Origin: Thunnus maccoyii | Taxonomy: Eukaryota > Chordata > Actinopteri > Scombriformes > Scombridae | Reading direction: 5' to 3' | Length of the DNA stretch: 64,000 nucleotides | Assembly (NCBI RefSeq): GCF_910596095.1 | Contig: NC_056555.1 | Location: 12,702,001 to 12,766,000 of the forward strand | Shown: piece by piece, positions 2,593 through 34,400 of the stretch | How the letters are laid out: the number at the start of each line of letters is the position of its first letter | Position numbering within the stretch: position 1 is the first letter of the stretch | Notes under the pieces: generated by a model | The model's database searches: none | What the model was told of the DNA's origin: nothing | What the model saw: the letters and a program-made list of their open reading frames with translations, nothing else | Translations under genes and position numbers: made by a program

Positions 2593-5500
2593 ATGGAGAA
2601 ACGGTCCGACAATGCGGGTAGGTTGCTAAGCTAGCGCTAGCAAGCTAACAGTAGCTGCCGCCGAGAGAAAGGTGGTGAGAAAATAAGATGCAATGACATC
2701 CATCTGTTGCTCAGAACAGACTGTTTGCATTCAGCCGCGGACCAACATGCAGATATCCTAGTCTGTTCAGCTATTTTGAGGAATGTTTAGTAGCTTGCTA
2801 GCTGTCGAACTTCAGCAGGCTGTTTCAAATTAAATAATCGTTGTCGGCCACTGTGTCGTGTAATATCAGCTATCACAACTCCTTTGAATATTACGCTGCC
2901 CATAAGATCTACCTAAAGTTTGAATTTTGCAGTCGGTCGCAGTTTGGCGCTTATTCTCTTCACGACCGCACATGCACGCGCATACTGTGCACACATTAGA
3001 CCCTCTGCAGTTTATCTGCAGTTATCAAAGTGAGTCGTTTGCACTGCAGCGCCCCCCACAGCAGCTGCACACACCTTCAAAACCAGGCTTATATACAGTG
3101 ACATTAAACACACATTTTACAAACCCAAGGGACATCATCATCGCTGCTTAGACTGGTGGAATAAGTATTCGGATGCTTTACTGAAATGTGTACTATGCAG
3201 GATTTCCTAAGAAACAATATATAGACTCATACAAAAGTAATCCCTCCCAAACATCACTTATGACCCACTGGAACTGTGTGGTGGTGTATGTACCTGCAGG
3301 GACCCTTCCCTCTGCCTGTATTTTCTTTTTACTTTGCAGTGGGTGTGTTGCCCCCAGCCAATAACAGCGCGCAAAGTGAGGGGTTGGGATTCGTAGCGTA
3401 TCGACCGGGTTACATCGCTGTGTCTGTCTCTCTCCTCTGCTCCGCTCTGCTCTCTGTCTCTGTGTCATGGATATATAAAGAGCTGCAGGTCTGTGTGTCT
3501 GCTTGACCGAGGGCTTGGCTGAACTACACATGCACAGAGCAGAGAGGCCACAGCAGACAGGATGAAGCTCTTCATGCACACAAAACTCAGCAATGCAGCA
3601 CCTTCCGACAGGGTTGTGCGGAGGTGTGGGCGTGTTTATTTGTGTTTTAGAACGTAACCACCATGAAACAATGAGAAAATAATGTTTTATTTATCTGATT
3701 CACGGCTTTGTTCTCATCAGTGCCGCCCGCGCTCTTCATTCACTCTCTAGCTCACTCAACCACCGCTTCTCTCTCTCTCTCTCTCTCTCTCCCCCTCTCT
3801 AGTTGAGCCGGGGAGGAGGAGCCAATTTTGAATGCTGTGTGTTTACAAACACTGACAGTACAAAAGTTGAAACAATTGAAACATATATATGTACATATAT
3901 ATGAATAGAAATATTAAATGGATAGGATATATGTCCTTAATGGGTATATGTGTCTATGCTGCCTTCATAGTTAAGTTGAGAACTGGCAAAGGGTATGAAA
4001 AAGTGAATTCTGGCTAATGAGAGTCTAAAAAGACATTCATCACTCAATTTAGAGAAAGCATACCAACAGATGAAGGAAAATGTAATAATTGATCAGTGAC
4101 ATTAAAGACTTGTCTACATGAAACCTGGCCAGCGTCCTCTAACGATAGAGGTATTTCTATATTTTCATGCATGCTAACAGACTGGCTTTATGTTGTGTTT
4201 TGTGCAGGTGTTAGAGGTGGCCTTCCCCTGGCCTCCCTCCGCTTGATGGCGTCCCCTCTGCAGCTGACATACTCGTACATATGGCAGGTCATACGGCAGA
4301 GAAACGTGAAGCAGTATGGGAAGGTGGAGGAGTTTGTGACCATGGTGACGCAGACTGTTCCTGAACTCATGAATTTCAAGCAGACTGCCCAGCTCGTCTT
4401 GGGGTTGAGGGCAAGGGTGAGAGTTTGCTTTCATCTATTGTGTATGTGTCTGTGTCAAAGAGTAGAACTTAATTTAATAGGTAGATAACATAAGTAAACC
4501 TTAAGAACCCTCCAGCTATCAGACAGTTTCTTTAGGTACCACATACCTGATGCTGTTTGCTCTCCAGGCTACTAAAATGCATGGCATGACTTATTAAACA
4601 TCAAAGTGCTCTTGCCACACAGCGTTGATGAACTCCACATGTTCCTTATTACAAATCACACACACATCAAGAACAAAAAGAGCATTTGTCATCATAGCTT
4701 TACTCCCTTTGTCTTTCCATGTGGTTGCAGGCCTTGTTCCATTGTAGATTTTGTGCTTTCAAAATTGTCATCTTTGTTTTTTGCATGATTTTTCTCATGA
4801 CTATAATTTCTGTCTTTTCTTGCACTAGATCATTTTGGATTTGCTCCACAACGAGGGACCACCAGATTCCCGGGCTATTCAGACTCTCATAAATAAGTTG
4901 AAAGTCTCTGCATCTTCAGGGGTAAGAATGTGAAAATTTTCTTCTGATACGTACACAGTTGCTTGTGTTTATATTTATCGAGCAGATTTGAGCTTTAAAT
5001 TAAGCAACTTAATTTATGAATTAAACCTGAGTTAATTTCTGTGTTACAGAAGGACTCTGAAGTGGATAAATCTCAAACTAACTTCATGGTGCTGGTCCAG
5101 AATCTGCTGAAAAATCCGACTGAGAGGAAGCGTTTCTTCAAGGTATCCACATCTGTCCACATGCTAATATAATATAAACATGTACACACACACACACACA
5201 CACCACACTGTTAATACTCAGCTAGATGGAGTTGACCTGCATTGCATCTTGCAACATGTCAGTTTTTTCAACCACTTTGACTCTTTTTCACACCAACCTG
5301 TTGCTACTTCAATCCAAAGAGAGTGTTTATTCATCAAAAGTGTTGAAGTCTCCCACATCTTATGTTAAAAACTGAAGGGGGATGTTGTTTTTCATTTATT
5401 TATTCTCATGACAGCTATTTCAGTCGTATGTACAGACCTACATGTAGAGATACAGTGCATTGAATTCATAAAACTCTCCTTTTGACCAAAGTTAAACACA

Positions 5501-8343
5501 ATTCTAAGGTCACAGTACTGTTAATTTCACACACACAAATCTCTCTCTGCAGGAAGTGTTCCCTGTTCAGTATGGCACAAAGTTCGATACAGCGCTTCAG
5601 GCTCTGACCGCGGGCCTGGTGTGCAAGCTGGAGCAACTTCTTCCTGTTCCCAATCTCTCCCAGGTACGCACATGTACGCTAGTTGTTTGCATTTAGTTTG
5701 GGGCAGTCACAGCAGGGTAGGCTAGTGGTTGGAAACAGGAACTATCTTTCATCTGGATCAGTGGAAAAACATGCTTGAGCAAGGAGCAGAGTTCCTCTCA
5801 GCTCCATGGGTGTCTAGTAGTTGCACTTTATTGACTGGCCAAATAGGTAATCAATAACACACATTAGAGTATCTGGGCATTTTCAGAGTGCCTGCAAGAG
5901 TGAATTCCAAACTTTTCCAGACATCTTTAATCCACGTTTGAATGTTGCATCAAACCAACCATCTGATATTGGACTGTGAAGATACAAAAAACATGATCTG
6001 ACCTGAAACATGCACAGCAAACTTATTCATTATTTTTATTTCCTACTTCTAAATCTCAGCTTGGTGCCATGATCTCATCGGAGCCCAGTGTCCTGGAAGC
6101 ATGCGGAGGCTTCATCCCTGAACCCGGCGACCTGAAGACTCTCCTCCTGCACCAGCAGTCCAAGGGAATCCTCAGTGGGAAAGGTATACTTGAGTTTGTT
6201 TGTATGAACATATGATGAAACCCAGACAGATAAGACATGTTGATTATGTAGATGTGCAAAACAACTCTTAAAGGAAAGGAAGAAAGTGATAGATACATCA
6301 GAGAATTGATAGATCAAATAATAGCAGCCCTACACTACAGCTATATGTCACTTCAGTTTACCTTTCCCTGCCTTAATAATTGTTATTAGATTAGTAGAAC
6401 ACAAATAAAATGCAAGCCTTTAGAAGAGAGGATAAGGGATGCTACTTAATACTTCTGCAATATGTTGTATTACATGACTTTTCATGAGAGGTTTGCTGTG
6501 GTTTCACTCAATAATAAAGTTTTATACTTGTATTGTCAGCTTTTAATTAACTTGAAAGTGTTTTGTGATAACATAGACAGGCAGACATGTATACAGAGAG
6601 ATACATTTGTTGAGTAAATCATTGAAAGAAATTAACAAAGACGTCTTAATCTGTGCAGCAACCATCTCATCTTCGGTGGGCGACTGTGTGCTCTCTTCAC
6701 TTGCCTTCCGGCCCAAAGCAGTAGAACCACCACCACCACCCCCAGAATCACCAAAGCGTTTAGAGGTCAGCCTCCAGGACACAAGCCCTGCTTCCCTCAG
6801 TGACACCGAAGACTTGGGAATGATGTCAGATGACTCTGACAGCCCAGCAGTCCCTGCCAGTGTACCACAGGGGAGAGCGCAACACAGTGATAAAACAGAC
6901 GATGGGGGTGCTGCCAAGGAAACAAGTGTCACAACAACAGCTCCTTCGGACAATCTGGTGCAGGAGAAGAGCTCTACACAGGAGCAGTCCGCCACGAGAA
7001 GGGAGGAAGGAGTACCACCACCAGCACCACCGGAGAAACCGGACCAACAGCGGCTGCCCTTGAAATCAATCCCTTTCAAGGTAGTGCAAGTGCCGATCAA
7101 AACCGCTCCCACCTTACAGAATGCAGGTAGCACAGGAACAAAAGACAGCCAAAAGCCCACGACTCAGCGAGTCACACTGCATCAATGGGTGTCACAGATT
7201 GCCACTAATTCACTCTCGCTCCCTGCCTTGCCACCACTCCCTCCAGCCAGGCTGAGTGTGGACGATGACATGAAGCCAAGCATCAGAAGAAAAAAGCAAA
7301 TTAGGCCTCCAGCTGACAGGTTTACATGTGCCGTGTGCGATAAGACCTTCCCTTATCAGTCGAAGCTAATGGACCACGAGCGCATCCATACAGGAGAGAA
7401 GCCTTTCGTGTGCACGGCATGCAACAAGAGTTTCCGAACACAGGCGTTTCTCAACAACCACCTGAAGACCCACAGCACAGCGCGACCTTACGCTTGTGGC
7501 CAGTGCGGCAAGTGTTTCACCAAGTTACAGAGCTTGTCAAAGCACATGCTCGCTCACAGCGGCCAAAAGCCCTTCTACTGCAACGTCTGCAACAAGGGTT
7601 TCACGCAGTCCACCTACTTCAAAAGACACATGGAGTGCCACACGAGCCAGATGACGTTTCCCTGCAAGCACTGCAACAAAATCTTCCCAACGGCTTTCAA
7701 GCTGTTAAACCACGAGCGCTGGCACACCAGGGATCGCCCTCACATGTGCGAGCGTTGTGGGAAGAGATTCCTCGTCCCCAGCTTGTTGAAGCGGCACATG
7801 GGCTATCACATTGGCGACCGTCAGTATCTCTGCTCCCAGTGCGGAAAGACCTTCGTCTATTTGTCTGACCTGAAGAGGCACCAGCAAGACCACGTGCCCA
7901 AAGCAAAGATCCCATGCCCTGTTTGCCAAAAGAAATTCTCCAGCAAGTACTGCCTGAGGGTTCACCTGAGGATCCACACCAGAGAAAGACCCTACCGGTG
8001 CTCTATCTGTGAAAAGACCTTCACTCAAGTCGGGAACCTGAAAGTTCACATCAGGCTACACACCAACGAGCGCCCTTTCAGCTGCGATGTGTGCGGGAAG
8101 ACCTACAAGCTGGCGTCCCATCTGAACGTCCACAAAAGGACTCATACGTGCAAGAAGCCCTGGACGTGCGACACGTGTGGGAAGGGATTCTCCGTCCCCG
8201 GCCTTCTGAAGAAGCATGAGCAGTTGCATACGAGGGAAGCTAACCCTGACTTCTCCGGCAAACGGAGATACAGGGGTAAGCACAAGAAGCACTCCCTCAA
8301 GAGGAAGTATGATGAGGAAGACGAAGGTAGCGATGATTATTAA
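2593..8343 (+). CDS. TINF2_N-domain, 11-finger C2H2 zinc-finger protein (gene 1)
   Basis: Exons: 2593-2617, 4208-4416, 4829-4921, 5050-5142, 5553-5663, 6060-6174 (alternative end 6184), 6659-8343; about 776 residues. Residues 15-200 (exons 2-6) resemble the N-terminal domain of human TIN2: LRLM...WQV(I/V), a tyrosine-rich KQYGKVEEF helix and LGLRA(R/K) match TIN2's LRF...WQVV, HFPRVLEF and MGLKAK. This TRFH-like fold binds TPP1 and TRF2 in TIN2. Residues about 200-435 are low-complexity, Pro- and Ser-rich and partly acidic. Eleven C2H2 fingers occupy about 437-745, followed by a basic then acidic tail. No TIN2-like FxLxP TRF1-binding motif was seen. A nuclear DNA-binding role is inferred; any telomere link is a hypothesis. 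The exon 6 donor is uncertain: the better-looking donor at 6185 breaks the frame, while the weak one at 6175 keeps it. Poly(A) signal AATAAA is at 8622. Confidence 0.88.
3766..3790. repeat. (CT)n microsatellite
   Basis: About 12 CT units lie in intron 1 of the TINF2_N/zinc-finger gene 1. The neighbouring 2.9-3.6 kb of this intron is CpG-containing, with many short chance ORFs but no splice-bounded coding exon. Confidence 0.85.
5183..5203. repeat. (AC)n microsatellite
   Basis: A short run of alternating A and C in intron 4 of gene 1. Confidence 0.8.
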
Positions 8344-8650: not shown

Positions 8651-9489
8651 GTGCTGTTTTTCATGTAATTAGGTGATGTGACAAAAAAGACTTAATGTAA
8701 CTAAGTTACCCTGAGCTGTCACATTTTGAGAAATATAAGATAGCAATGTTGTGTTTTGAACATTTTCTGATCTATTTTGAAATTGTCAATGGTTAGTAAT
8801 CTTTTTCATTCCTAAAACATGTGATGGGTCCTGAAAGTTGAAAAAATATATTTTCCCAAAGGTAATGCTTTTTCAAGAGGCTACCTTTACTATATCCAAC
8901 ATTTTAAAAATGGGCATCATGTAAACAGCATTTCAACGCATGTGACTGTGGAATATATCTCTGCTTTGTAATTAAATGTTCAATGTAGTGTCATTAGCAA
9001 ACATTTAACTTTGTATGTAACCATGCACTGTAAACATTACAGCTACTCTGCTTTTGTTTAAGAGTGAAAATAGTCTGATTTATGTTTATTAGGATTTAAT
9101 TTTTTCCATCAGTGAATGTAGTTATAGATGCTCTAATGGAGTTGAATTAACATTAAGAATTAAGTTTAGTTTTGGCACTATAAAAATTTAACATTATGCA
9201 AATGTGTGATAAGTTGTCCTGTGAATTACCTTTCCCTTTGCTTATCCTGTTATCAGCAGCCATGTATATAACCCATCAGGTAACATTTTCATTGTTTTGT
9301 TGTTTTATAGAAAAAAATAAATACTCATTGCAAAGAACTGTCTTGTTGCTTTGTTACTGCACCAAACCATCTATCATGAGCCCTGAAATGGGACCTAGAT
9401 AGTTTATGTTTAACTTAGAAACATTAGTTCAAGGAAACAAAAGCTATCAGTGCTCAAAAGCGCCATTGATTGACCGTTTTGAAGCCATA

Positions 9490-9997
9490 AACAGCAGTAG
9501 TGGAAAGTAAGTATATTACTCAAGTACTGTACTTTGTACTGTACTTGTACTTTACCTGAGTATTTCCATTTGATGCTACTTTATACTTCCACTCCACCAC
9601 ATTTCAGAGGGAAATATTGTACTTTCTACTCCACGACATTTAATTGACAGCTTTAGTTACATTTAATATGAAGATTTGACACAATGGATAATATAACAAG
9701 CTTTTAAAATACAACACATTGTTAACTAACTCCACCTCCAGCAGCTACAACAGTAACGTGCTGCTTACACATCGCTTCGGTATTAATAATCTAATGATGT
9801 CATATATAATATCAGTCAGAGGGACCAAACCACTACTTTTAGTGCAATACTTTAACTACATTTTGCTGATAATACTTATTTATTTTTACCTAGGTAGGAT
9901 TTTTCATGCAGGACTTTTACTTGTAACTGAGTATTTTTATATTTATGTATTGGTGCGTTTACATTAGCAAAGGATTTGAATACTTCTTCCACCACTG
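9490..9997. mobile_element. TIR element family A, copy 2 (uninterrupted)
   Basis: This is the simplest copy of the family also seen at 1246-2101 and 45795-46335. It starts near cagtagtggaaagtaa and ends cttcttccaccactgg, giving inverted ends. Its uninterrupted middle, where 'aacaagcttttaaaatacaa' is followed shortly by 'ctccacctccagcagc', shows what copy 1 looked like before the nested insertion. It has no coding content. Confidence 0.7.
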
Positions 9998-10189
9998 GTA
10001 AAAAAGTAGACTTTTTTTTCCTTCCTTCCTTTCCGTACGTTTCTCATGACTCATCGGCTTTATTGATGTATTTAACGCTAACGGCTTTCGTCTTGTCTAA
10101 AAGTAGGGTATATTTTATGAGACCAGAAGGTAAAAGCACATTTCCACTGGCTCGTTATGGCACGCATTTGCCTCACGCACGGCACGTCT

Positions 10190-10395
10190 TAACCGCAGGC
10201 TCCGCCCTCAGCCGAGCCGTAACTAGGTAACGGTCACCTGACTGGCTCAAATATTGTGTCGTCATCCAAGCGGCAGCAAAGAAGGAGCGCCATTTTGAAA
10301 AAAACAAAACAAAAACAAAAACAGCCAAACCTTCCACCATTCACCCTCCTCTTGTTAGTTGTTGTGAGTTTGAGGAGAAAAGAAGAGAAAAGAGC
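10190..10395 (+). promoter_or_regulatory. promoter and 5' UTR of gene 2
   Basis: A local rise in CpG content at 10130-10300 follows AT-rich repeats. A YY1-like GCGCCATTTTG lies at 10287-10297, and a poly-A/CAAAA tract follows. The ATG at 10396 opens the first Myb/SANT-like exon. The start site is inferred from composition and from the position of the first coding exon. Confidence 0.45.
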
Positions 10396-13300
10396 ATGGA
10401 GCCACCATCAAAGTGGTCTTATGTAGAAACTCAGGCACTCATTGCGGTGTGGTCAGAGGAGAAAATCCAGCGTGACCTGCAGGAATCACTCAGAAATGAG
10501 AAGGTGTTCAGGGAAGTGTCAGGTCGACTGGCTGCAATGGGGATGTATCACTCTGCGAAACAGTGCAGAGAGAAGATAAAGAAGCTGAAACAAGATTATA
10601 GGAAAATAAAAAGAAACAGAAGTGAGGCAACTGGGAAGATCTTCAAGTGGTATGATGCTTTGGATGCTATCATGAATAAAAGAGCAGCTACTGCAGACAA
10701 CACAGAGCAACAGTCAGCCACCATGATACTCGAATTCCTAGTAACAGACGTGGGAACAGGTACGTTCAATTTGTTATTGTTGCAGAAGAGTCCAAGTCTC
10801 TCCAATAAACACTACAAATAGCTGCAAGACAACATTGAATAAGGAGATTTCATCTAATCGTTGAGTCAACTTTTCAATTACACTCTGTAGATTTTATTTC
10901 TCAATCTAAGTGTTGCCAGGAATTAAATTCTAGTGAAGAAATTACAAAACCTTTTTCAAGATTCAACAGGTTTTATTGTCACATGCACAGCAGCACAGCA
11001 GTATATAATAAAATGAGAGAGAAATCTACAAATATACATTATATTGCACATTGGTGTGCAGGTGCGGTATTGCATATAAGTAGTAAATAGATAAATAAGT
11101 TAATTGCACATAAGTGATGGGTAAAAAATACTTCTGAAAAAAATTTAAATACTGTGTATTGGGGAAGAGAGTGTGTGTACGAGAGGAAGAGAGAGAGACT
11201 TTCAACCGTAGATTGTATTTTAACCTACTTTTCAATAACATGTTGCAAAAAAGTAGTATAGGTTTTAAAAATTATACTGAAATTAGCCAGTGTTTATAAA
11301 TGTAGAATGTAACTCCTCAGGTAGCTAAAAATCCACAAATTCTCAGAAAAATGACTGACTTCAGACTTCCTGAGACTTGATCTCAGGGTCCTCTATGGTT
11401 GCAACAGCCCTGGTTACAGATGAGTTTTTGTAAAAGAAATATGTACGCAGTCTTGTGAAGCTGTTATTAAACACAGGCCAATTGTCAGGTATTACTAATT
11501 AATGGGAAAAGGCATAACTAGAATAGTTGCTAGAAAATGTTCTTTTTTGTCACTCCATTAGTTATGAAAAATGTAATTATTTTCACTTGTGTTATCTCAT
11601 TTTGAGTATTGTTCAGTCACACGGTCTGCTTACCTTGCAAGGCAGCTGGATTCGCGAGATCAGACATCACAAGATCACCCGAGAATCTATCTTGTCAGGC
11701 TTTGAGTTATCAGCGTCCTATGAGGGTTCTTGATCACGCAAATCTAGCTGCCTCGCAAAGTAAGATGGTGATAGACAGATGGTTCATCCAATCACCTGCC
11801 AAGTATTTTTTGAAAGTGCCTGCCCTTTTCCAAACAGTTTTCAAGGACGACTTCTCAGATGGTTCTGTGTAACAAACCATCAGGTCAGGTTCATGGTCTG
11901 CTGCAAATAAGAAAGACCTTAACGGACTTCAGTCAGTCCAGAACAAGGCTGCAAGATTAGTTCTAAGATGTCCGTACGACACCAGCAGTACTGAAACAGA
12001 CTGTCCTGGTTCCCAGTAGAAGTTAGACTTCATTAGGGCATATTAATATTTATAAAGAAAGTAATATTATTAGGTACGCCCATTCATTTTTGGACCAACT
12101 GCAATATCCAGACCGATACATAATTACTCCACGTTTCTTAAATAACTGCAATTTAGTAACTCCTTGTCCTGGTTTATTCTGTTTTTTAATAAGATACTCC
12201 TATATGTATCCTGTTTTTATGATGTATTTTGAAGGTGTGGACCCCAGGAAGACTAGCAGCTGCTGTGGTGGAAGGTAATGGGGATCCAAATAAATAAACA
12301 AATAAATGAATAAACAAATGACTGAAAAACAATCTGAATCACCTCCAATTTTTATAATTGCCAGGTACAGAGTACAAAAAAAACATTAATATCTCATAAG
12401 AAAAGGAGATGTTACAAGACTTGGCTACTTGGCATATTTTCATCTGCAGTCCCTGGGCAAAAAAAGTACAAATACTACAAAATACAGTTGTACAATGAGT
12501 CTTACATTTTCTGTAGTGCATAGACAACCACACACACAACAACTGTCATCTGCTTAATGTAAATTATCGTAGTTATAGAACAAAACATTGGAATCACTGT
12601 GTTGCATGCAGATGCATAAAAATATAAATATAAGGATAGACTTGACGTGTCAAATTAGGGTTGACAGGACTGGTTTCTTCAAAATCAAGCATTTTTGTTC
12701 AGCAGTATTAAAAATAATGTCATTGTAACATCCTCTGCCTGTACAGATTAATAGCATCTGTCCATTTTGTCTTGCAGATTTACCCACTACAATAGACCTT
12801 CCTGGTAGCTGCACCCTCATACCCTGCCCTACAGCACCCATCCCAACACCCTTCCTCACAGAGCACCCAGTAGATACAAGTTCCTCCTCCGTTCAACCAG
12901 AAGATGCTGACGCTCCCTCTTCAAGCACCCCAGTGACCCCCAATACAGTGCAAACTTCAGTCAAAGGCATGCATGTTAATCCACTAAAACACTGCCTCTA
13001 AAAATGTACCGAGTTTAGCTTCTTCCATTTCATGACTTGATAAATTATGATCTGTTGCTTTCCCAGATCACACAACCTTGTGCCGTTGGTCAAAAAGAGA
13101 AGTCCAAGCATTGTTGACACTTTGGGCAAATCCTGCCATCCAAAAAGAACTCCTCCTCAACATGAGGAATGAAAATGTTTACACCCGCCTCAGTGAAAAA
13201 CTAGCTTCGCTTGGATACAACAAAGCGCCAAAGAAATGCAGGGAGAAAATCAAAAAACTGAAGCAGGAGTACAAGAGGATCATGAACGCTAATCACAGGA

Positions 13301-16300
13301 GTCGAAGCAACAGCATCCGTACAAGTGTATGGTTTGCCATCATGGATGATGTGCTCAGTTCCCAGGCTGCTGCAGCAGCAGGAGCAGCATGTTCACCAAC
13401 AACAGAGCCCTCACTGCCCACTCTGTCGCACTCCAGCTTGGATGTGAACACTGATGGTAAGCAGAAATTCAAACCAGGAACCATTCAGATGCTGGTTTTT
13501 AATAGTGTCAACCAAAGTTTCTTTTATATTGTGCGCATGTGAAAGTTTTCATTTATGCAATTTCAAACAACCTACAGCAGGTGCTGCTAGAGAACATATA
13601 AGCTGGTCCACTGGGAAGTTGAGGATGTAGTGGTGCTTTAGACAAACAGCAGTTGCAGGAACAGAAACTTTCTATGTACAAAAAGGAGAAATATTTGACT
13701 GGGAGCCTCAGCTCCCAGCTTATGTTATTGGACCACAATAGTAAAAATATTGAACATGGCCAGGGTGAATTTAATAACTGGAATTTGATAACTCTCTCTG
13801 TGTTTGGACTTTTTTAAGCCTTGGAACTCATTGTTGTTGATATAAAGTTGACTAAGGTTACCTTTTCTGGTAAATTCTCATTTATTCAAAGTAGCTAGAA
13901 TGCAGCTCTAAATAAGTGTTAACTATATTTTCTTTTTATAGTTGTTATTGATGTTTTAAGTTGTTGCTCTATTTAAATTTGGCATGTTGCGTAGTTATGT
14001 TGCTTTCTTGTCTTGATCTGATTAAAAAAAGATTCAGTCATTAAATGAATGAATAAAGAGCTGTATTGTAGAACCCCTGTCTGCAATAATAATAATAATC
14101 ATTATGATTATACTTTTTAAATTTAATCTCCTTCATTTTATTTTGCTTTTTTAAACTTTCACAGATGAAACCCAGTGGTTGCCTGATGAAGTCCAAGTGC
14201 TGATGACTCTCTGGGCACAAGCAAACATTCAGAAACAGCTTCTCACCCCAGCAACAAACAAAAAAGTCTTCACTTACCTCAGCAATGAGCTCACTTTTGT
14301 GGGTTTTAACAAGACAGCAGATCAGTGCAGGCTTAAAGTGGATAGCCTCAAACAGGAGTACAAAAAAATCAAAGAAGTGGAACCATACAAGGATGTTAAA
14401 AGTGACTGGTTTGCTATTTTGGATGGTGTCCTTAGCCCTGATGGAGAGGCATCTACAGAGATGGATTCATTTGCAGTGCTGACACAATTTAAATCTCCAG
14501 AAGATGTGTATATAGATAGTAAGTTGTTTCAAACCTCGTAATATCTAAAGACTATAATGTAGAAGACATTCATAATTAGGGAGCATAAGCTGATAGAATG
14601 ATTATCTGCATCTATTGAGAGTTGTCTCTGTATTAAATAAGTTAAATTGCTTTCAACAGATACATTGCGGGCTGTTTGGACATCAGATGAAGTCAAAATA
14701 CTGCTCACCCGATGGGCAGAGGAGAATGTCCAGGAGCAGCTTCGATCGACTCAAAGAAACGAGAGAGTGTTCGCTCAGCTGAGCTCAGAGCTCGCCACTC
14801 AGGGTTTCGATAAGACCACCAGCCAATGCAAGTCAAAGATAAGACTGCTGAAGAAAAAGTATAAAATCACGAAGGAACAGAAGGACTCTAAGAAGCAAAA
14901 AAGCAGATGGTTTGTTATAATGGATAAAGTCCTTGGTGGTCACAAGCGAGATGCTGAGACCAAGCAAGCAGCTGAGGACACTGATTCAGGCGTTGCACCT
15001 CTGCAGACATCGCAGTATGACATCTCTGAAGCAGCAGATGACTTAGGTAAAATAAGATGATGTTTTTTGTACTTTACAACTTACAGTAACTGCAATATGT
15101 GATCTTTTTTTGTGTTATTTTGTTATAAATTCTGGTAATATTTATAAATTGCAAGGCTGCAGGGAAACATTTTGTACTAAATCCCCAAAGGGTGACAGAC
15201 AGTGATTGAATGTTTTAATGCAATTGCAGTACCAAAGGCAGAAAAACAAACAGATTTGAGTTAATTCAGTCCCAAAATCAAGTCAGAGCTTCCAACATTC
15301 TTATATAAGAACATCTACGAAGTAAGGAGCCTGGAATTTGGTCTGTCAGGTAGTGTGTGTTGCACTTCAACAAGCTCCATAAGTAAAATGCTAGATTGAG
15401 GTAGGATATTTATTAGTGGTAAGTTTATGGTATAAGGTTATATATGATTTGTTCTGAATTGTGTTATTTTATGTGGAAGAGTTTGATGACTAATCCTTTT
15501 TTCTTTTTGCCTTTTTTTTTTCTAACCTCATTTGCAGGCGGTCGCTTGTCCTTGTCGTCATTGTGTCTCCTGGTTCCAACCTTGCGTCTGATGTGTGCCT
15601 TTGCGTGGCAAGTGGTCCAGTGTTGTAATGTGGCACATTATGGAAAGGTGGAGGAGCTGGTCAGAATGATGACTGAGCTGGCTCCAGAGTTGCTGACTCC
15701 CAGAGAGAAAGTGCAAGTCCTGCTCAGGCTAAGGGCAAGGGTAAGACACATTAAAGCGTATTTTTGTTTAACTTCCATTATTTTTCTCACTAGATTTATC
15801 TTTATATAGTAAATGTTGTTTTTTAAGCATCAGTGGAGTGGATTTCTAACAAAAGCTAACCTACATCTGAAGTGTATTTGATTCAAATTCAGCAACAAAA
15901 TAATGAAGTTGATCCTTTTTGATGTAGCATTACAGCTGTACAGAAGCTACATCCTTAAATTTGATCTCAGAACATACAAAAACAAAATCGAGGCAACCAA
16001 AAATAATTTACCAAGCACTTCCAACAAAGTGTTACTTATGGTGTTTTTTTTTTCAGCGTGTGCTGAAGCTGTGTTGCAGTGAGAGCACAGCTAACCTGAT
16101 GAATATCCAGCCCCACATGGAGGTCATTCAAAACCTCAAAATAGGCTCCAACTGTGGTCAGGAGGTATGTCTGCAGGTGTGGTGAAGAACTGAGCTGAAA
16201 CAGAGCTGTGGAGTGGTGTGTTGATTCTCAGTTTGGTCTGCATTGTTGCCATCCGTTTCACATTGTGTTGTTTGATTTACTGTAAATATTTCTTAATGAG

Positions 16301-19300
16301 GATTTAAAATGAAATATAACTTAAATGAACAAATTAGATGGCTCTGCTGCTGTCTGCCAAAAAACTCAACTATTTAGTCATTTTAACATATTTTACAAAG
16401 AGGGACATGCAGAATAAAGAAACACATCACTGGTGTTAAAAAGAACATACTTACAAAGGTCACTGATCTTATTGGACTTAAAAAAGAAACAAAGAAATAG
16501 CAAAATCAACATGGTTGATAACGTACTGATAACTGCTTAGAACTTGGAGTTTGTTGGTTTTTTTTCTGTGCTCACAAGCAAAGCTGAAATTTGAGTTGAT
16601 CTTATTTCACCTCTGTATTTCTCTATTTTTATACAGTCTATGGTATTTCTTAATGTATTTTATTGTCACCCTTAGCACCCCAGCAAGGCTTTAGCTGTGC
16701 ACAGTGGACAATGAACTGATGTTCTGTTGTCATGTGGCAGGACAAGCTCCTCTGTTGTCCCTACAGGAGAAAGAAGGGAAAGGTTGCTGAACCTTTTGAG
16801 GTCAAAGGCAGACTCTTCAAAGTCTAAATTAAGTAGCATTCCTCAATTAACCCTCTTAGTGCTTTAGAGAGCATTGAGGACATCCTCCATGGATCTCCAC
16901 CTCACTTTGCCCGAGGCAATGATCTTCTCCCCTCTGACGCTTAGGAAGGCCCCATGTTGTCTTTATGACTGCACTTAATAGGAGGTCTTTGATTTTTGCC
17001 TGCCTCCTTTATTCCCGTGGGTTTTCGGTCAGAGCAGATTTCTCCTTGATGTTTAATTGATGTTTCCGTGCATCTGCTTTTCTCTCTTCTGATGCAGAAA
17101 GAGACAATATTGTCAAGCCATTTGAGGGTTTTTGAGTTGTGCCATTTTCACAGATTCTAATTTAATTTCCTGTGTTATTGAATGTCCAAAACTCAGGAGC
17201 ACACATGCTCCTCACTCATCACTACAATGGATCCCTGGTTTAGTCAAATCAGCTGGCAAAAAGTCACATCAAACATAATGGAGAATATGGAGGAATGGTG
17301 CATTTTTGGCACACACCGAATGACCGATTGAGGGTTTAATATTATACTAACATGTACCAAATCCCAGAAGTTGTCTTTCATGTCTACCTCTGGTTATATG
17401 TCACATGACCCTTGCTCTGGTCAGTGTATCGAAGCATCACAGTCAGAAGCAAAGAGCTGAGGTTGATGACACTAGAAAAAAACTAGTCCACGTTTCAACC
17501 AATATGTTTATTTTTATCTTGTTTGTTTTGATACCAAATATTAGGAATTGGAGGAGTTGGAAAATTCAAAGACAAACTTTGTGGAGGTTGTTCATTCCTT
17601 GCTCGAGGACCCAGAGGAGAGAACTGTGTTTTTCAAGGTCAGATATTCTTTACACACTTAATGAGTATCTGTTAAAGGGTTGTTTGCATGTTTTGATATA
17701 ATTAATAGTTTTGTAAGTAATATTGAGATAGAGATAATCAGTCAAGAGAGTGGACATATGACAGTGAAACGTTTTTCTTTCGTAATGTGAACAAGTACAC
17801 CAACCAGCTGTGTGTGCAACGTGCACATGTGATGATTCACATTCCTTTTTTCCTCAGGAGGTCTTCCCCATCCACTACGGCCAACAACATGAAGCCACAT
17901 TGCATTCATTAGTGTGGAAATTCATCTCCAGATTGGATCATCTATTGCCTGTACTGGATATTAAACAGGTGTGCACAGTTTTAAATATTAAACAGAAGAC
18001 TACAATTACTACTATATTTACTTCACGATCCTTTATCTTATTAAGCCTTGGTAGACAGCTGCTCACGGAAATGTTTGAAAATCATGTATACAATAATTTC
18101 AAAGCAAATTCTGCACAATAGGGTTTGGTCAAATTAACTGTTACCTACTGTGAGCAACATAGTGAATAAAGAACTAGGAAATGATGAATCATATTGCGTA
18201 AACATGGTCATGCCGTTGTCTTTGCAGTACATGCTCATTATCTGCTTACACTTTTCAGACTGCAGAGTGGCTCAGTACTGACCCGTCTGTCATGGAAGAA
18301 TGTGGACAACTGGTTTTGGAACCTGATCAGCTGAAGGCCCTGCTGCATGTCCACCATCAACAGTCAGGAAACACAAACAAATGTAAGTCATCTGCTACAG
18401 TGTGTAAGGAAAACAAAAAATAAACTAAATAAACTGCCTGCCCTATGGCCTTCTAAACCATCAAGCAGTTTTTAAGAGACATAATGTGAATGTTATTTGG
18501 AACATTCACTGACTTCATTAATGAGTTTCTGTGCATTTTTCTGCAAAGTAATTTAAATTAAAAACATGCTTGATGTTCCAGTGATTGTGAGAGAAGTTGT
18601 GAGAACACAACAAGTTTGGACGCAATAAAACTTTTTAGAAAAAAAAGTTGATCCACTTTTTTGTATTTTCTTTTTTCTGCATTTTAATTCTAACCACATA
18701 ATTCCAAATCTAACCAGATTCACGATTCGGATGGTGATATCAAAACATGTCATGAGCTTAATAAACATGACCAAATTTTTAAGGTAGTGGTTGAAAAATA
18801 TTCTGACTGTGGGGAAAAAAGGTCTGAAAAAAGTGCCGGAATCTACAATGAAATTTGAACAACACAAGTGCTACAGTATGCACCCCAAAAAAGTGGTAAG
18901 TCCATTGAGTTGTATGATGAGTTGTTTGGCACTGGTTCGGCTGTTCTCGCTATAGCTTTATTCTTTAGCTATAGCATGTAATGTTAGCTAACGTGCACAG
19001 AAATTTCTGAATATATAAATTATATTCTTTCCCTTATGTATTTAGAAGGACCTTAATTATTGTATTAATCAATTTATCCTCAAGTACACACCGTGAAACT
19101 AAAAGACCCACATTGAGTAAAATTAGTTGTCTCTTTGTATTATATGTACATCTCACAATATCATGAATGTTTGCACTTATGATGTTTTTTTTTTCTCCTC
19201 ACAGGCAGCTCTGACACTCAGAATATGTTTTTGCCAAGGCTGTCTGTTTCTCACAAAGCAAACCCAAAACAACTCTTTCAGGAGCAAATCAGCTCAAACT

Positions 19301-20549
19301 CAAGTGAATGCATGAGATCTGGCTCGCAACAGGAAATTTTTGCAGGTGACGAAGATGAAGGACCTTTTTATTGTAGTGAGGAGGAGGAGCCCATTGAAGA
19401 AAACAGTACTGATCACAAACCAGCTGTGGAGGACTGCGGCAACGGAAGTGAAGACCTGAAGTTGAAAGATGAACAAAGTGATGACCTAACAACTGTAAAC
19501 TGCTGCGGTATGGCACTCCATATTCATTTGTTTACATATCTGTTGTAATTTTACAAGGATGGGAATTCACAGATTGAAAGAAATTGATGAAATTAGAATT
19601 TGTAGTCATTCCATACTATATTGCTGTTAAAAGATTAAACTTCTGCTGCATTTCACTTAAACTGAATCCCCTCATCATCTTATGTCTTTCAGAGTCACAC
19701 AGTTGTACACCTTTAAGACTGCAGACCTGCTCTTTGTGTCCCTACTCTGACAGAGAGATGTCAGGTCTTCTGCAGCACATCAGAAAGGTGCATATGATCC
19801 AGGAACCCCACCAACCTCGCTCTAAAGATCCCAGGATAGACAGCGTCCCTCAACAAGTCAACAGAGAAAAGTGCTCTCCAGAGATGAAGAGCACAACAAA
19901 CACTTGCGACTTCTGCGGGAAAGTCTTTAAGGATCTTTCAACCCGGAACAGCCACAGAAAAACACACACTCTGCCTTTCCACTGTGACATTTGCGAGAAG
20001 AAGTACTCCTCCAAGTGGTCCCTGAACGTGCACCGTCTGACTCACACCGGCGAGACGCCATATTTGTGTTCGCACTGTGGCAGGGGATTCAGGTCTTCAT
20101 ACAGCCTTGGGATGCACGTTCGCATTCACACAGGTGACCGGCGCTACAAATGTCACATTTGCGGGAAGACTTCGATCCAGCACCTGGCGAGACACATGCG
20201 GATGCACAAAGGGGAAAAGAACTATCTGTGTACAGAGTGCGGAAAGGCTTTTCTCTCCTCTGGGGAGTTAAGGCTACACATGAGGTTTCACACAGGAGAG
20301 CGGCCTTACACATGCAAACACTGCGGGAGAGGTTTCATTGCAAAGTGCCTGCTAACAGTTCATATGCGCCAACATACAGGAGAGAGTCCTTACAGGTGTT
20401 CTTTGTGTCCGAAATCCTTTCACACTTTGAGAGCGCAGAAAAGGCACGTGAAGATACACTCTAACAAAAAGTCTTTCCAGTGTTTGAAGTGCGGTAAAAT
20501 ATTCCGTCAAGAAGACACTTTTAAAATGCATGTTCAAACACACAAATGA
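10396..20549 (+). CDS. 4x Myb/SANT-like + TINF2_N + C2H2 zinc-finger protein (gene 2)
   Basis: Exons: 10396-10759, 12778-12966, 13067-13456, 14165-14518, 14660-15046, 15538-15740, 16057-16164, 17545-17637, 17858-17968, 18259-18382, 19205-19507, 19693-20549; in frame, about 1160 residues. Exons 1, 3, 4 and 5 each encode one Myb/SANT-like (Myb_DNA-bind_4 type) domain: a Trp start, a (N)xxVFxxL(S) helix, then Gly-Phe/Met-x-K/S-x(3)-QC(R/K), KIKxLKxxYK and a WF/Y(A/V)I(L/M)D end. Exon 2 is a Ser/Thr/Pro linker. Exons 6-10 encode TINF2_N, with exon lengths 93 and 111 identical to the matching exons of gene 1. Exon 11 is acidic. Exon 12 holds an atypical first finger and eight C2H2 fingers; the fourth is two residues short and lacks the core Phe. 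The inferred role is nuclear DNA binding with protein recruitment. Intron 2 needs a GC donor. Poly(A) AATAAA is at 20918. The architecture recalls mammalian ZSCAN20/29 with TINF2_N in place of SCAN. Confidence 0.88.
10958..11240. repeat. probable non-LTR retrotransposon tail
   Basis: In intron 1 of gene 2, a 'caagattcaacaggttttat' start followed by 'tgtcacatgcacagcagcac' resembles the repeated 3' tails of fish non-LTR elements inserted in antisense. The rest is AT-rich. No protein-coding motif is visible, so the class is a guess. Confidence 0.35.
11600..12315 (+). mobile_element. degenerate LINE 3' fragment
   Basis: One frame near 11885-11975 reads KDLNGLQSVQNKAARLVL, the segment just after the reverse-transcriptase domain in many LINEs. 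The segment at 12237-12315 (gtgtggaccccaggaagact ... ggggatcc followed by an AAATAAATAAA tail) is a typical fish LINE 3' end. Frames are broken, so the copy is inactive. It lies in intron 1 of gene 2, in the same orientation as the gene. Confidence 0.6.
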
Positions 20550-20945
20550 CAGTACTATGCAATGTTTGAATTTAAAAAGTTTTAAGCGATTGTATGTCAT
20601 TAACAACCAGTCTGGTTTAAGAAATATTTCTGTCTTATCTGTGATAAGCTGATATTGGCTGAAATCAGCTGTGCTAATATGTGAAACAGCCTTTAATCTC
20701 TATGGCCCAGTAATGGAGTTGAGGAATATCAGCGTGCATGGTTTATGTTGTTGTAATTGTGGAAGATAGGTTGCTAAAAAAATACAGTTACTGTTTTAAT
20801 GTATGAAGACCATCTCAGTCAATGCTACCCTTCCAAACACATTGTAATTTGGTGCACAGACAATCTTAAGTTTTTGTGTGAGCCACAGATGTTTTACCTG
20901 GAAGTGTTTATTACTGAATAAAAATAATTGTATTAAAATTGACAA
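20550..20945 (+). other. 3' UTR and poly(A) signal of gene 2
   Basis: The TGA stop is at 20547-20549. A canonical AATAAA at 20918-20923 is the first good signal. From about 20945 to 21400 I see no exon-like frame. Confidence 0.55.
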
Positions 20946-21399
20946 AGACAAATTAAAACTTGAAAAAAGACTTTCTTTTATTCTGAGAACCTGAGTGAGT
21001 GCCAACCTTGAAAGGTCAGTTCACCAAAATCACACACATACACACACAAAAAGAAACATTTTCTCTCTTACCTCTTGTGCAGATGGTGGGTTTTATTTTC
21101 CATGGTTTTGAGAAATCCGTCTCTAAGATTTCTGCCTCAACTCAACAAAGACTATGGAGATGAATAGAATTTCATTTGTCACAGCTTTGAAAGCATTATC
21201 ATTGGATTAGCCACCTACATCGCCATTATCATCCATTTTCAACAGTATTACTTTTTTACCAGAGTGTGTAAGTAAGTGGAAAAAACTTTTTTTTTGTTGA
21301 TTTAGTGAACCAAATAACCTCGTGGAACAACTGGGTACAGAATCTGAAGATAGAAATAGAAGTAGATAGTGTTTTTAATTTTGGAATAAAGGAAATTAA

Positions 21400-28400: not shown

Positions 28401-31400
28401 AAACAGGGCTTTGTGTTAATTGACAATAGACAAACAGAGAGACTGAAATACGTTGATATGTGTCACTGAGAATCCAGTTTCAGTGAAATGGCACTATTTG
28501 AGAATGCAAAACTGATAATGAATCAATGCTGACTATCTAGGGATTTCTTATTGGGATTTGTTGACAATAAAAAATACAGAATATCAACAGATGTATCCTC
28601 AAAGAAGGAATGAAAATATGATTTTGCTTTGCTCATGTCCAACAGGGATGCTTTGTCTTGCTCTAAGGGGAAGATGAGCATTTGGGCCAACCTTCTTCTT
28701 CAGCTAAACCCTGAGACTCTTGATGCCAGCCAGCGTATTAATTTAGTCACCACCATGTCCAACTACCTCCACCAGCCGCTGCAATTTGTCTATCTATTTT
28801 CAAGAAGAAAATCCTTCACACTACAGCAAGAAAAGCTCAGGGTTTGTAGGCAAGGTGGGTTTGCTGCGATACAAGATGCCATCGGGGATTTTGGTGAGCT
28901 TCTGTGGCCTGTCGGTTGTCAAGGAGAGGAACGACAGTCTGATTTGGCCAAGGTACTGGAACACAGTGTGAAGGCAGGGGTCTTGGCAAGGTGGCTGGGA
29001 GCTAATATTTTGGGATGGAGAGTGCTTTGTGCAGCCGCAGAAGTGCAACAAAAAGTAAAGAGGCAGCTGCAAAGGTCAAAATTTACACCCACTCCTAATA
29101 TGATTGTTCTACCTCCAACTCAGATGCAAGAGACTGTGAAACTTGAGCATTCACACACATATTCTCTTTCTTTGACTGAGCTGGAACCAAAGCTGTCAAC
29201 CCTCTCGATGCATATGAACCATGTAGAGGCAAAGCTGGAACCAACACACACAGAGGATTCACCTGAAAATACTTTCAGCAAAGAATTTTTACAGCAGCGC
29301 TCTGGCATGCAGGGGGATACTTTCTCAGATTTACCCACGAAGGTTATCTTGCTTACTTCTGAAGAGCATGCTTTTAATATGCAAATATATCCCTCTGACA
29401 TAAATCATAAGATGCCTATCACTATTTTAAAAACAAATAATATACAAGTACCCTCACCCTCCCCTTTCTCTATCAAGCAGACAATTTTGTATGTATACAG
29501 CAGGCAGCTAGCCCTCTTGGAGCGACAATTATTTACTGACGAAGATATTTGGACAAGTTTGCACATGTCAATCGGTGTGGAAAAAACAAACAGACTTGAA
29601 GAACTGACTGGCTGCAGTGAACAGACACTAGAATCCACATTAGATACATCACTGGTACCAAAATTATCTGTTAAATGCTCCTTACTGGAGTCTGCATTAC
29701 CTACAACTTCTTTGCTCAGCACAAGAAAACTTGAAAATCCTTCACTTAATTTGCCTACAACATTCAGGAATTTTGTTGATACCATGTTACTTGGGGAACC
29801 TTTGTCTGCCACCACTCTCTCAACATTGTTACCATCATCAAGGCCTCACAGTATTTACCCCTCATTGCCACTGACCTTAGCCACTTCCACGCTGACACAT
29901 GAGGCCGTCGACAGAGAATCGCTCGCCACTCGTCTGACCCTTCGACCTCATCAGAAGGAAACCCCCCTCTGGACTGGATCTTACAGAGCCAGTCACACTG
30001 ACTCAGAAAGTCAGTCCATACTGAGCTCACAGGGTAAGTCTGCTGCTGTTGACTTCTATATGACAATATGGGATTGTTCTGGGTGTTTAGTCATTCAAGT
30101 CATATGTTGTAATGACTTGACCTTGTCTGAAAGGGAGCTCAAAGCTGAATGGAGCTGAATGGATGAATGAATGGAAGAACATATGGGCTAATGTAGCGAT
30201 GGAAATATGAGAAGCATAGATGACTTGGAAAACAAATTACTATATCAGAGTTGTATGTTAGGGATCACATGAAGCGAGATATATATATATATATGTATAT
30301 GTCATAGAATTATGAATCAAGTGGAAGAAAACACAAAAGAAAAATCTGTTTAAACATTCTTTTGGCACTTGAGGGTCACATTACACTCACATACTATAAC
30401 AATTTTAAAAGAGTGCAGTGTGTAGAATTTAGTGGTATCTAGCGAACGTGGCAGAAATGGAACATAATATTCATAAGTATGTTTTAATTAGCGAACAATA
30501 ACCTGAAAATAAGAATCGTGTTTTTGTTAGCTTAGAATGAGCCCTTTATATCTACATTGGGAATGGGTTTTCCAAGGAGCCTGCCATGTTGTACCGCCAC
30601 ATTTCTAAAGTAGCCCAGAACAGACAAACCAAACACTGGCTCTAGAGAGGGTGAATGCGAGTTTCACAGCCACCGCAGGTTCCCCTACATGCTTGAAAAG
30701 GAGGGCTGAGGACGAGGGGTTGCAATCCATAGATAGAGAAACGTAGATACTTCATTGTCATTGCTGTTGGTTGCCACTATGCATCTGCAGACTTCACTAC
30801 AAAGTCAACTGTAACTTGTTTAATTCTGAACCAATTTTCATCAAATTTGGTTTGTTATAAACGTGAGAAATTGAACATGATGCTGGTTACTTGTTGGGAT
30901 TAGATTCAGTTACTGGGGGCAGATCTAATCAGCTCTATGGAATAAAATCAAGCACATCATGCTCTTGCTGCAAAAGCCACTGTAACCGTAGTTTGTCTAA
31001 AGACAATTTCTCCAGTCTGATAATGATCATTTTTATTTTATAGTTATCATCAGTCAATTATCAATTTTCCAAATGGTCTACTCTCCATGACCCTTGACTG
31101 TTGACCGCCCCAATATGGTGACCACGCAGATGCATGTCAAATCATGAATGCTGTATCTACATTTCTATATCTATGTTGCAATCTGCAACCTCACTGCTAA
31201 ATACCACTAAATCCTACACACTGGTAACTTACTAAAACAAAATGGGTCGCTAAGAGTTACTCGCCTATTTACACATCTAGCAGAAACATAGCAACAATAT
31301 CCTTTGGAGGTTGTGTTTCTGGCCATCTCATGGATGTAAATCCCATATTCACTCTCTTTTAGCTTTGTTTTGCTCTCCACCAACTCCTGAGGGAAACATC

Positions 31401-34400
31401 TGGCTCTTCAGATGCTAAATGCTGCAATATGTTCACCAGCTAGTTGGTGATTTTGTCTGTCTGCCCTTTGATGCTGGGAAAAGTGTGTATGGGTTTTTGG
31501 AGCTTTTTTGGCTGAAAAGAGCTGCCTGGAAGTGTTTGGAAATTACATCGATGAGACTGGTGAGACTGAACCAAAACAGTAATGTTGTGGGTCCAAACAA
31601 GGAGCTAAGAGATGCTTAACAGTTCTGTAGAATTGAGGGGAACTTATCAGGAGGAACTTATCTGTTGATTCATCACTTTGAGCCCCGTTTACATTACACA
31701 TAGTCATTTGATCCATTGTCAAAATAAAAATATTGAGTATAGCAGCTTTCAGTTTGGTGGTTGAATACAATGAATAGTTGGGATGGGATGATGGACAGTT
31801 TATGTGCATCCTATAACAATCCCATATATGATCATTTATTGCATTTATTAAAGTCATATTTTTCCATCATACATACTAACCAAGACCACAACACTGCCGA
31901 ACCAAGACTCTATAACCTCTCATCTGTTTTCCATCTACCTCCAACAGAGCATTATAATGATGCCCTGCTGAACTCCAGATTAAAGACAATACAGTCACCG
32001 CCATCATCAAACAAAATACTAATTACTCGACTGTCTCCAGATGTGTCACCAACCTCATATTTAATGACCAAGCAATTATCAACTCAGCACTCAGTCCAAC
32101 ATCTGTCCATAGCTCCATCTGCGATGAATCAGGATGTGATGTCTCAGCTAAATGAAACAATTAAAGACATGTCATTAACCTCATTAGCGGGTCAGCTGAC
32201 ATTGTCTGGAAAAGCCGAATTGGAGTCTTCGCTCTCTACGTCTCTGTTGGACAGTCTGAAGCCCTCAGTGACAACCTTTACGCCACCTTTACCTTCCAAG
32301 CTTGGCCTCTTAAGTGGACGACTTGAGACACCTAATATCACTGATCCTGTATTTAGTGAAGAGTCTCTAAAAGGATCATCATCTCTGATGCCACTGTTGC
32401 AGACTTTCTCCACATCTTTTCTTCCTGATATTGACATCTCCTCTTTGCAGTTTGCAGGCCAAGGTGTAACAGACTTACAGTCAAAATCAGGCGCACAATT
32501 GGGTTTTTTTCAAGATAAACTAACACAGACATTAAGTTCAGCCATTTCATTGGTTTCCCTATTACAAACATACCCCTGTTGGCCTCTGCAAATGAGCCTT
32601 CCTTTAACTGAAAGCCATCAAATCAGTTCAGACATATTAACATTGTTCAAAGACCATTCCTTTGAAGTAAAAACAACACAAAGTCTAGCATTGTACACAA
32701 TGTCCAAAGACAAGTCAACTCATGAGAAAATACAATTCATTCCATCAGTGCAACAAACACTCCTTCAGTCATTGCTGCTGAAGGAGTCACAGCAAACAAT
32801 CAGTGACTCTTTGATAACTTCCATTAATAAAGATTCATCAGTTGTCCAAACTACAAGTCAGCAGACACTAGGCCCCAGTATGACTGATCCAGTTCCACTT
32901 TCAATATGTAAGAGCACTGGACTAGTGAGTGAGGACCATTTTGATCCAACTGCTCCCTCTACTGCTCAGGAACCATACACTACATCCTCCATTCCTCAAA
33001 TGCAGAGTCTAGACCCTTCATTTCAATTTTATGACAACTCCGTGGCAAATGATCTTGTGTATGTCAGTGTTTGTAACCCACCATCTAGCAGTACCTACCC
33101 CAAGAACACAGTGGATAAAGTCCATGTCTTTTTGACAAGTTATTTGCAAGATGAGAAGTACTGGACTGCTTTTTCTTCACAGTTTTTAATGTTTGGCTCA
33201 AGTCGACAATTCTTTCCATCCCAGACTTTGGTGGAATATCTCTCACTGCATCCAACCAGCCTCCTCACAGAAATAAATCACAAGACAGATACTCAACAAG
33301 TGGATGTTTCGGACACTCATCCTCCTTTAGAGGGCAGTGGCTTCTCTGTAATAACACACACATCACTAGCACAGAGCACATCTGCCCTCAACGGAAATAG
33401 TTTCAGTTTAGAAAATTCTTTGTTTATCTGCCAATCATCTCCTAAAGACGACAGTGGGCCAATCACAGAAGGACTCCCTAGTCTGCAGATTCTAAGCACA
33501 TCTTATGGGATGTCAACCACATTGTTAACATCGGTACTGGCTATGGCCATTTCCTCATCTACAACCCAGAGCTCAGTCCAGCCATCACGCTCCTCAGCTT
33601 CTGTCTCAAGTAAGCAATCTCTCTCTGAACAAATTTGATTTTTATATAAAAAAAATGAATGAGTGAAAAAACATGCAAATTAATGGATGAATAAAATACT
33701 TTTTTGACTTCTTATAACTTTTTAATTGGTACTAAATAAAAACTGTTTTATAAACATAAAGACAACTGTACATCAGATCAGCTAGAAATTACTTTATTTG
33801 TACCTAATTTTAGTTTAGGTACAAATAAACACCCCACAGTATTTTTTTTTTCATAACTATGTGACTATATCCAAAATGTCAGTTTACTAGTATTTCATAT
33901 GGTAGTTTTAATAACTTCTCATTTTTATTTCTCATTTCAGGCTTTATGAATCTCCCCCCTAAGGTGTTACAGTCTATTCCAGCGTTGATGGCCACTGTTG
34001 GCTTTCCATTCCAATACTCAATCCCTCCAAAAACCTTTCTAGACCCAGAAGATGGTGAGGCGGATGCTCTTTCCCTGGAGTTGAGGTTGATTGACAGGCC
34101 TCCGGTCAGCGTTGGCTTCTGGTTGGCAATGGACGGTCTGGAGCTTCATGGTGTTCCTCTGGAGGTGGATCTGCGGTTTGCTCCTCAGCATCTCCTACTG
34201 GCTGCCAGAGACCGCCAGGGCCTGAGTACCTGGCTGCCTCTGACCCTGGATCTGCATCGCAGCCCTGTCCAACCCTGTCACATTTTCACCCTGACAGCAC
34301 AACGCAGCCTCCACTCTATCCTCCGTCACCGCCACAGGGTGGAACTCTTACTGAGAAAACTATCCAGCTTCTTCAACAGCTCTAGCACCCACCACCTTTC

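Follow-up and report, generated by a model that had tools for sequence, protein, structure and literature searches.

KRAB and SCAN are lineage-specific N-terminal modules of finger proteins, and ZSCAN20 and ZSCAN29 are vertebrate proteins of the trihelix (Myb_DNA-bind_4) class. DNA is bound both by Myb domains of the trihelix type and by arrays of C2H2 fingers. FiNZ is a further group of finger proteins with a lineage-specific N-terminal module, according to the part of the paper available to us (Wells et al., 2023, PMC10547256). The shelterin protein TIN2 (TERF1-interacting nuclear factor 2) carries a TRFH-type domain, TINF2_N (PF14973; solved human chain 5xyf_A), and the portion of PMC7617103 available to us states that domains of this type dock short peptides and, in TRF1 and TRF2, dimerise too. 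Here, we describe a predicted gene of Thunnus maccoyii, located at 10396-20549 (+) of a 64,000-base stretch (hereafter the window; C23:12702001-12766000), in which a complete TINF2_N domain is found together with four trihelix Myb domains and a C2H2 array. For comparison, the genome (782 Mb) was searched for related loci.

The 12 exons of the model, when joined, comprised 3483 bases and encoded 1160 amino acids with 0 internal stops. In the Pfam search, Myb_DNA-bind_4 matched four stretches (whole-protein E-value 1.7e-64; 214.7 bits against a cut-off of 27), and TINF2_N matched residues 585-733 over the entire profile (positions 1-149 of 149; E-value 6.7e-43; 147 bits against a cut-off of 29.4). 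C2H2 families, including PF00096 and PF13465, also matched the protein, and exon 12 contained eight evenly spaced C2H2 motifs plus one short motif. The TINF2_N part was similar to the solved human TIN2 chain 5xyf_A (phmmer against PDB, 9.5e-9), and the nearest solved structure for the Myb profile of the gene was plant GT-1 (2ebi, 3.6e-7). Chance matches were excluded on the basis of these Pfam and phmmer E-values. The presence of four trihelix/Myb_DNA-bind_4 domains, a full TINF2_N domain and a C2H2 array in one open frame was thereby confirmed for the predicted protein, and both domain assignments made in an earlier note on this stretch, the Myb one and the TIN2-type one, held up in the profile searches. 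Myb domains 1-3 shared 28-41% identity with the fourth. Weaker Myb-like matches were to GeBP-like, MADF and Myb_DNA-bind_3 (E-values up to 0.01, or up to 1 for the fourth domain), and no TRF-type (telobox) Myb, for which we take PF00249 to be the family, was among the Pfam matches within the same limits. Neither SCAN nor KRAB was among the 14 Pfam families matching the 1160-residue model at E-values up to 0.01.

Compared with TIN2, with which it has the full-profile TINF2_N domain in common, the window protein additionally contains four Myb domains and the C2H2 array, carries lysine at the position of human E153, and lies farther from human TIN2 than does another copy of the domain found on C22. 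With trihelix proteins such as GT-1, it shares the Myb/SANT-like domain class; unlike ZSCAN20/29, it has no SCAN match, it has four Myb copies, and TINF2_N stands in the place of SCAN. In having a protein-interaction domain ahead of its C2H2 array, and in being multi-copy, the family resembles KRAB, SCAN and FiNZ proteins, whereas the module is a TIN2-type domain and the excess divergence at finger contact positions is weak in this family (see below). Finger proteins that carry an N-terminal module are already known as a kind; what sets this one apart is the TIN2 domain in that role and the added Myb array. Among the open-licence papers listed, none dealt with a link between TINF2_N and fingers or Myb domains, although domain databases may well list such fish architectures.

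We consider it probable that this is one gene, that it belongs to a multi-copy TINF2_N-C2H2 family, and that it encodes a nuclear protein that binds DNA. The protein would act on transcription or chromatin, with two kinds of DNA reader and a TRFH-type domain re-used for docking. The family would descend from an ancestral tinf2 copy, its TRFH-type domain serving as a protein-docking or oligomerisation module ahead of C2H2 fingers. At the present locus, Myb exons of phase 1-1 would first have been placed ahead of the phase-1 TINF2_N exon and would have multiplied afterwards. A composite DNA site would be read by the Myb domains and the zinc fingers together, and a partner recruited via the altered TINF2_N domain, probably neither TPP1 nor TRF2, would change transcription or chromatin at that site. 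Several points weigh against this explanation and are given below with the evidence concerned; one of them is that the Myb domains and fingers of this particular protein are assumed to bind DNA because their families do.

The exon layout was congruent with one continuous coding unit. Exon 1 (10396..10759, +) contained the start codon, in a Kozak-like context (agagcATGg), and Myb/SANT-like (trihelix) domain 1 detected by Pfam, and ended at the donor cag/GTACGT (6/7 consensus positions). Directly 5' of it lay a CpG-rich putative promoter/5' untranslated region (9801..10395, +), where the 400-base windows 9801-10200 and 10001-10400 had CpG observed/expected ratios (CpG o/e) of 0.96 and 0.98, corresponding to the 99th percentile of the window. 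The remaining Myb domains identified by Pfam were each encoded by one exon of phase 1-1, namely domain 2 by exon 3 (13067..13456, +), domain 3 by exon 4 (14165..14518, +) and domain 4 by exon 5 (14660..15046, +; 4.8e-18 when searched alone). The earlier note had described four consecutive Myb exons; the four domains in four exons were recovered, but a Pro/Ser/Thr-rich linker, exon 2 (12778..12966, +), lies between the first and the second. This exon is symmetric (1-1), so that it could be skipped with the frame kept, and we regard it as optional.

TINF2_N began in exon 6 (15538..15740, +; Pfam), which has a phase-1 acceptor like the other TINF2_N loci, and continued through exon 7 (16057..16164, +), exon 8 (17545..17637, +; 93 bases) and exon 9 (17858..17968, +), the last of which carries the lysine at the human E153 position. 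Of the five TINF2_N exons originally proposed, exons 6-9 fell within the Pfam match, whereas exon 10 (18259..18382, +) lay beyond the profile and forms a C-terminal extension of the region, though a similar exon occurs at most paralogues. Exon 11 (19205..19507, +) encoded an acidic linker, the start of which may be a degraded form of a motif known from some paralogues (GDCILSSLSLPP). Exon 12 (19693..20549, +) encoded the C2H2 array of eight regular fingers and one short finger, together with the stop codon, and the first AATAAA 3' of it, a likely poly(A) signal, was located at 20917..20922 (+). The C2H2 exon had been described as following the TIN2-type part in frame, and the joined frame was indeed open, with the acidic exon 11 intervening. 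No stop occurred in the coding frame of any of the 12 exons save the final one, while the other two frames contained 0-12 stops per exon; in exon 8, all three frames were open. Donors across the model agreed with the consensus at 3-6 of 7 positions. Two of them count against the model, namely the non-canonical GC donor of exon 2 (aag/GCATGC) and the weak donor of exon 11 (3/7).

Two adjacent genes could also account for this layout: exons 1-5 would form a Myb-array gene, and exons 6-12 a TINF2_N-C2H2 gene that has a start of its own. Read-through between the two might occur occasionally. The Myb and TINF2_N parts meet at intron 5 (15047..15537, +; 491 bases). This intron contained neither AATAAA nor ATTAAA, its CpG o/e was 0.08, and no alternative first coding exon running from an ATG to a good phase-1 donor was found within it, the best donor matching 2/7 positions. 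The CpG o/e peak of the region 9401-21200 (0.98) was located directly before exon 1, and exon 12 reached 0.75. Moreover, phase 1 is found at both ends of exons 2-5, the GT donor of exon 5 has the phase that exon 6 requires, and the acceptor of exon 6 is in phase 1 with a good pyrimidine tract. An AG was seen by eye at the phase-1 position of the TINF2_N first exon in 18 of 18 loci, suggesting that a coding exon normally lies upstream of the TINF2_N part. Another gene joining TINF2_N and Myb domains in frame is also present in the genome (see below). On the other hand, 16 of the 18 TINF2_N loci had no nearby Myb among the matches listed, so the TINF2_N-C2H2 part can stand alone; a short first exon before TINF2_N could have been missed in other members; and a reading through the end of exon 5 would soon meet a stop, at 15058-15060. 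Upstream of exon 6, its frame stays open as far back as 15423 and includes in-frame ATGs, which weighs against a single gene by making an unspliced start within intron 5 possible. On balance, the CpG content, the poly(A) signals and the phases of the splice sites speak for a single gene comprising exons 1-12, and two adjacent genes appear unlikely, at about one chance in a handful.

The window gene belongs to a family dispersed in this genome. Since the genome profile matches represent the best candidates, the counts of TINF2_N and Myb are lower bounds: TINF2_N first exons were present at at least 18 loci (at least 35 matches in all). At 15 of the 18, a C2H2 frame (two or more motifs) followed TINF2_N within the stretches fetched, as in the window gene; this number includes one degraded copy with three motifs (L009). 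The loci lacking a C2H2 frame were L012, which has Myb domains instead, L015 on C22, and L026, where one finger-like piece was seen by eye. Among the TINF2_N-C2H2 loci, only the window gene had a nearby Myb among the matches listed. Acceptable candidates for all five TINF2_N exons were found by script at 14 of the 18 loci, although candidate exons at paralogues had to share the phases of the window gene, and the agreement in phase follows in part from this requirement. In this genome, DNA-binding proteins appear to use TINF2_N as an N-terminal module, in a way comparable to SCAN or KRAB. The earlier suggestion that a transcription factor had adopted the TIN2 fold for use as a SCAN-like module agrees with the C2H2 frame at 15 of the 18 loci and with the second in-frame locus of TINF2_N and Myb. 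As to genomic distribution, 6 of the 18 TINF2_N loci formed a local cluster within ~282 kb (C23:12.706-12.988 Mb), which included both genes that combine TINF2_N with Myb domains.

For alignment, ranking against human TIN2 and the count of conserved columns, L009 was omitted because only its first TINF2_N exon was recovered, leaving 17 copies; one or two missing exons at C23_5.758, C20_24.4015 and C24_1.2 were filled with X. The copy closest to the human TIN2 piece was L015 (C22:15371541 region), with 63.6 bits by phmmer (1e-17 against 5xyf_A), whereas the window gene scored 35.9 bits and ranked 14th of 17; the three rows with missing exons score lower for that reason, and the window gene outranks two of them. 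L015 is probably the true tinf2, because it is the copy nearest to human TIN2, has no finger frame, and has a C-terminal part that appears basic by eye. Five exons with the phases of the window gene were found in it, these phases again being a search condition. A short GDCILSSLSLPP-like motif followed TINF2_N in this probable tinf2 and several paralogues and looked degraded in the window gene, a suggestive result of an ad hoc pattern; the motif is possibly a docking motif. The stretch adjoining L015 on C22 (L016) contained a long homeobox frame, which we take to be HOMEZ-like.

The earlier note had also proposed a telomeric or subtelomeric factor, in which TINF2_N would still bind TPP1 and TRF2 while the Myb domains and fingers bring the protein to telomeric DNA. 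In favour of such a role, the domain genuinely belongs to the TRFH-type domains of the TIN2 family. In human TIN2, the substitutions F152A, E153A and A15R each abolish binding of TPP1 and TRF2 (PMC8262337), and the alignment places A15, F152, E153 and K160 on the letters named there. At the E153 position, the window gene has K, as does C12_17.05, whereas the probable tinf2 has E. The window copy was also the most derived, departing at 12 of 47 conserved columns (those common to at least 85% of the other copies), the most of the 17 rows (1 to 8 in the others). No TRF-type Myb match was obtained, the Myb domains being of the trihelix type, and the genome contains a separate probable tinf2. The TRF-binding motif FxLxP, in the form [FY]xLxP, was absent from the 1160-residue model, which would also speak against shelterin docking, but it was equally absent from 3.1 kb of the probable tinf2; being non-discriminating, it was dropped.

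Other observations temper this picture and weigh against an altered partner preference. The F152 position is still aromatic (W in both the window gene and the probable tinf2), and the A15 position is M in the window gene and V in the probable tinf2. E or D occupies the E153 position in 12 of 17 fish copies and in 11 of the 16 copies other than the window gene, most of which are not TIN2, so the interface may be partly kept in the family; a non-acidic residue occurs at this position in four other copies too. Since the F152 position remains aromatic and A15 is not kept even in the probable tinf2, the case for a loss of shelterin binding comes down mainly to a single residue, E153, and to overall divergence. 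In a pull-down of TTAGGG binders from 16 vertebrates, eight finger proteins were recovered, none of which is described with a TIN2 domain in the part of PMC5309834 available to us. Judging from these sequence comparisons, recruitment of shelterin by the window protein is unlikely, and the telomeric proposal as a whole was not borne out: with a trihelix-type Myb array, K at the E153 position and the most derived of 17 copies, we give it a very low probability.

The same departures at conserved columns, together with the non-canonical donor, could be taken as signs of a decaying or non-functional copy. Such a copy would be a fusion produced by local rearrangement, and only youth or weak constraint would have kept its domains intact. 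However, the frame extends over 1160 codons without a stop, and Myb domains 1-3 are so divergent from the fourth that the array must be old, yet all four still match the profile. Because the Myb domains are so divergent, stops or frameshifts would be expected by now without selection, and decay seems highly improbable.

The second gene that combines the two domains (L012-L013; C23:12987960-13002074) is located ~265 kb from the window gene. Myb_DNA-bind_4 had at least 77 matches in the genome, and, among the matches listed, these two loci were the only ones of the 18 with Myb beside TINF2_N. As in the window gene, TINF2_N is joined in frame to Myb_DNA-bind_4 at L012-L013: the TINF2_N exons, linker exons and first Myb domain, the latter encoded by two exons, join in an open frame. 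The order is the reverse, with seven Myb matches after TINF2_N; the first Myb domain is split by an intron (the others appear alike by eye); and no C2H2 frame was found within the stretch searched. One Myb domain was demonstrated in the joined frame, and up to seven are possible in one protein, although the fourth may start a separate gene, with a CpG o/e of 0.81 nearby.

In a Myb tree built from 26 of 31 matches, some of them hand-trimmed, out of the at least 77 in the genome, the four window domains grouped with one C9 domain (support 93/83). The seven domains of L012-L013 fell outside this group and formed no supported group among themselves; good support was obtained for 5 of 23 inner branches. 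For TINF2_N, 0 of 200 bootstrap trees paired the domains of the two genes, in a tree where 12 of 15 inner branches lacked resolution. Since domain order, introns and Myb groups differ, these data suggest that the two genes arose in separate events. A single origin was considered and set aside without being disproven: against the 0 of 200 bootstrap trees stand an approximately unbiased (AU) test that did not reject the pairing (p 0.25) and the finding that the TINF2_N of the window gene shares its highest identity, 44%, with the L012 copy.

On a wider scale, the TRFH-type domain of TIN2 may have been captured in this fish lineage as a general recruitment module at about 16 loci, combined with C2H2 fingers or Myb domains. 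The result would be a parallel gene-regulatory system, KRAB/SCAN-like in design but with a shelterin fold, in which the link of the TIN2 domain to Myb domains arose more than once. The window gene, which combines two classes of DNA reader, would be the most elaborate of its members. We advance this tentatively, giving it somewhat less than an even chance. If true, a domain that holds shelterin together would have a second career as the N-terminal module of fish DNA-binding proteins, one copy having gained four Myb domains, and the question would arise of what the TIN2 domain recruits away from telomeres. Annotation would then call for caution, as most TINF2_N matches in this fish genome are not TIN2. 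The copies, some of which have the acidic TPP1/TRF2 contact residue while others lack it, would also offer natural variants of the TIN2 domain in which the evolution of the interface can be studied.

A neighbouring member of the family was located at 4207..8340 (+), where the TINF2_N exons are followed by an 11-finger C2H2 frame. It carried G at the TIN2 E153 position, and no Myb match was found upstream of it within the window. An arms race of finger contacts, another conceivable feature of such a family and one expected of KRAB-like finger families that repress transposable elements, was examined in three duplicate pairs, all of them other family members and none the window gene. Identical residues at contact versus other positions numbered 33/36 v 108/117, 20/44 v 85/143 and 10/36 v 50/117 (one-sided Fisher tests, p 0.57, 0.072 and 0.078; pooled 0.032). 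Contact residues diverged slightly faster than other finger positions, and the idea was set aside, these pairs giving a weak signal only.

In the rest of the window, no repeats of 60 or more bases were present in 20600-64000, and no Rfam family matched the window at the gathering threshold. By eye, long frames at 28614-35130 (+) resembled a dystroglycan-like protein, an anoctamin-like exon was seen at 55671-56099 (+), and a LINE reverse-transcriptase fragment was seen at 54898-55389 (-).

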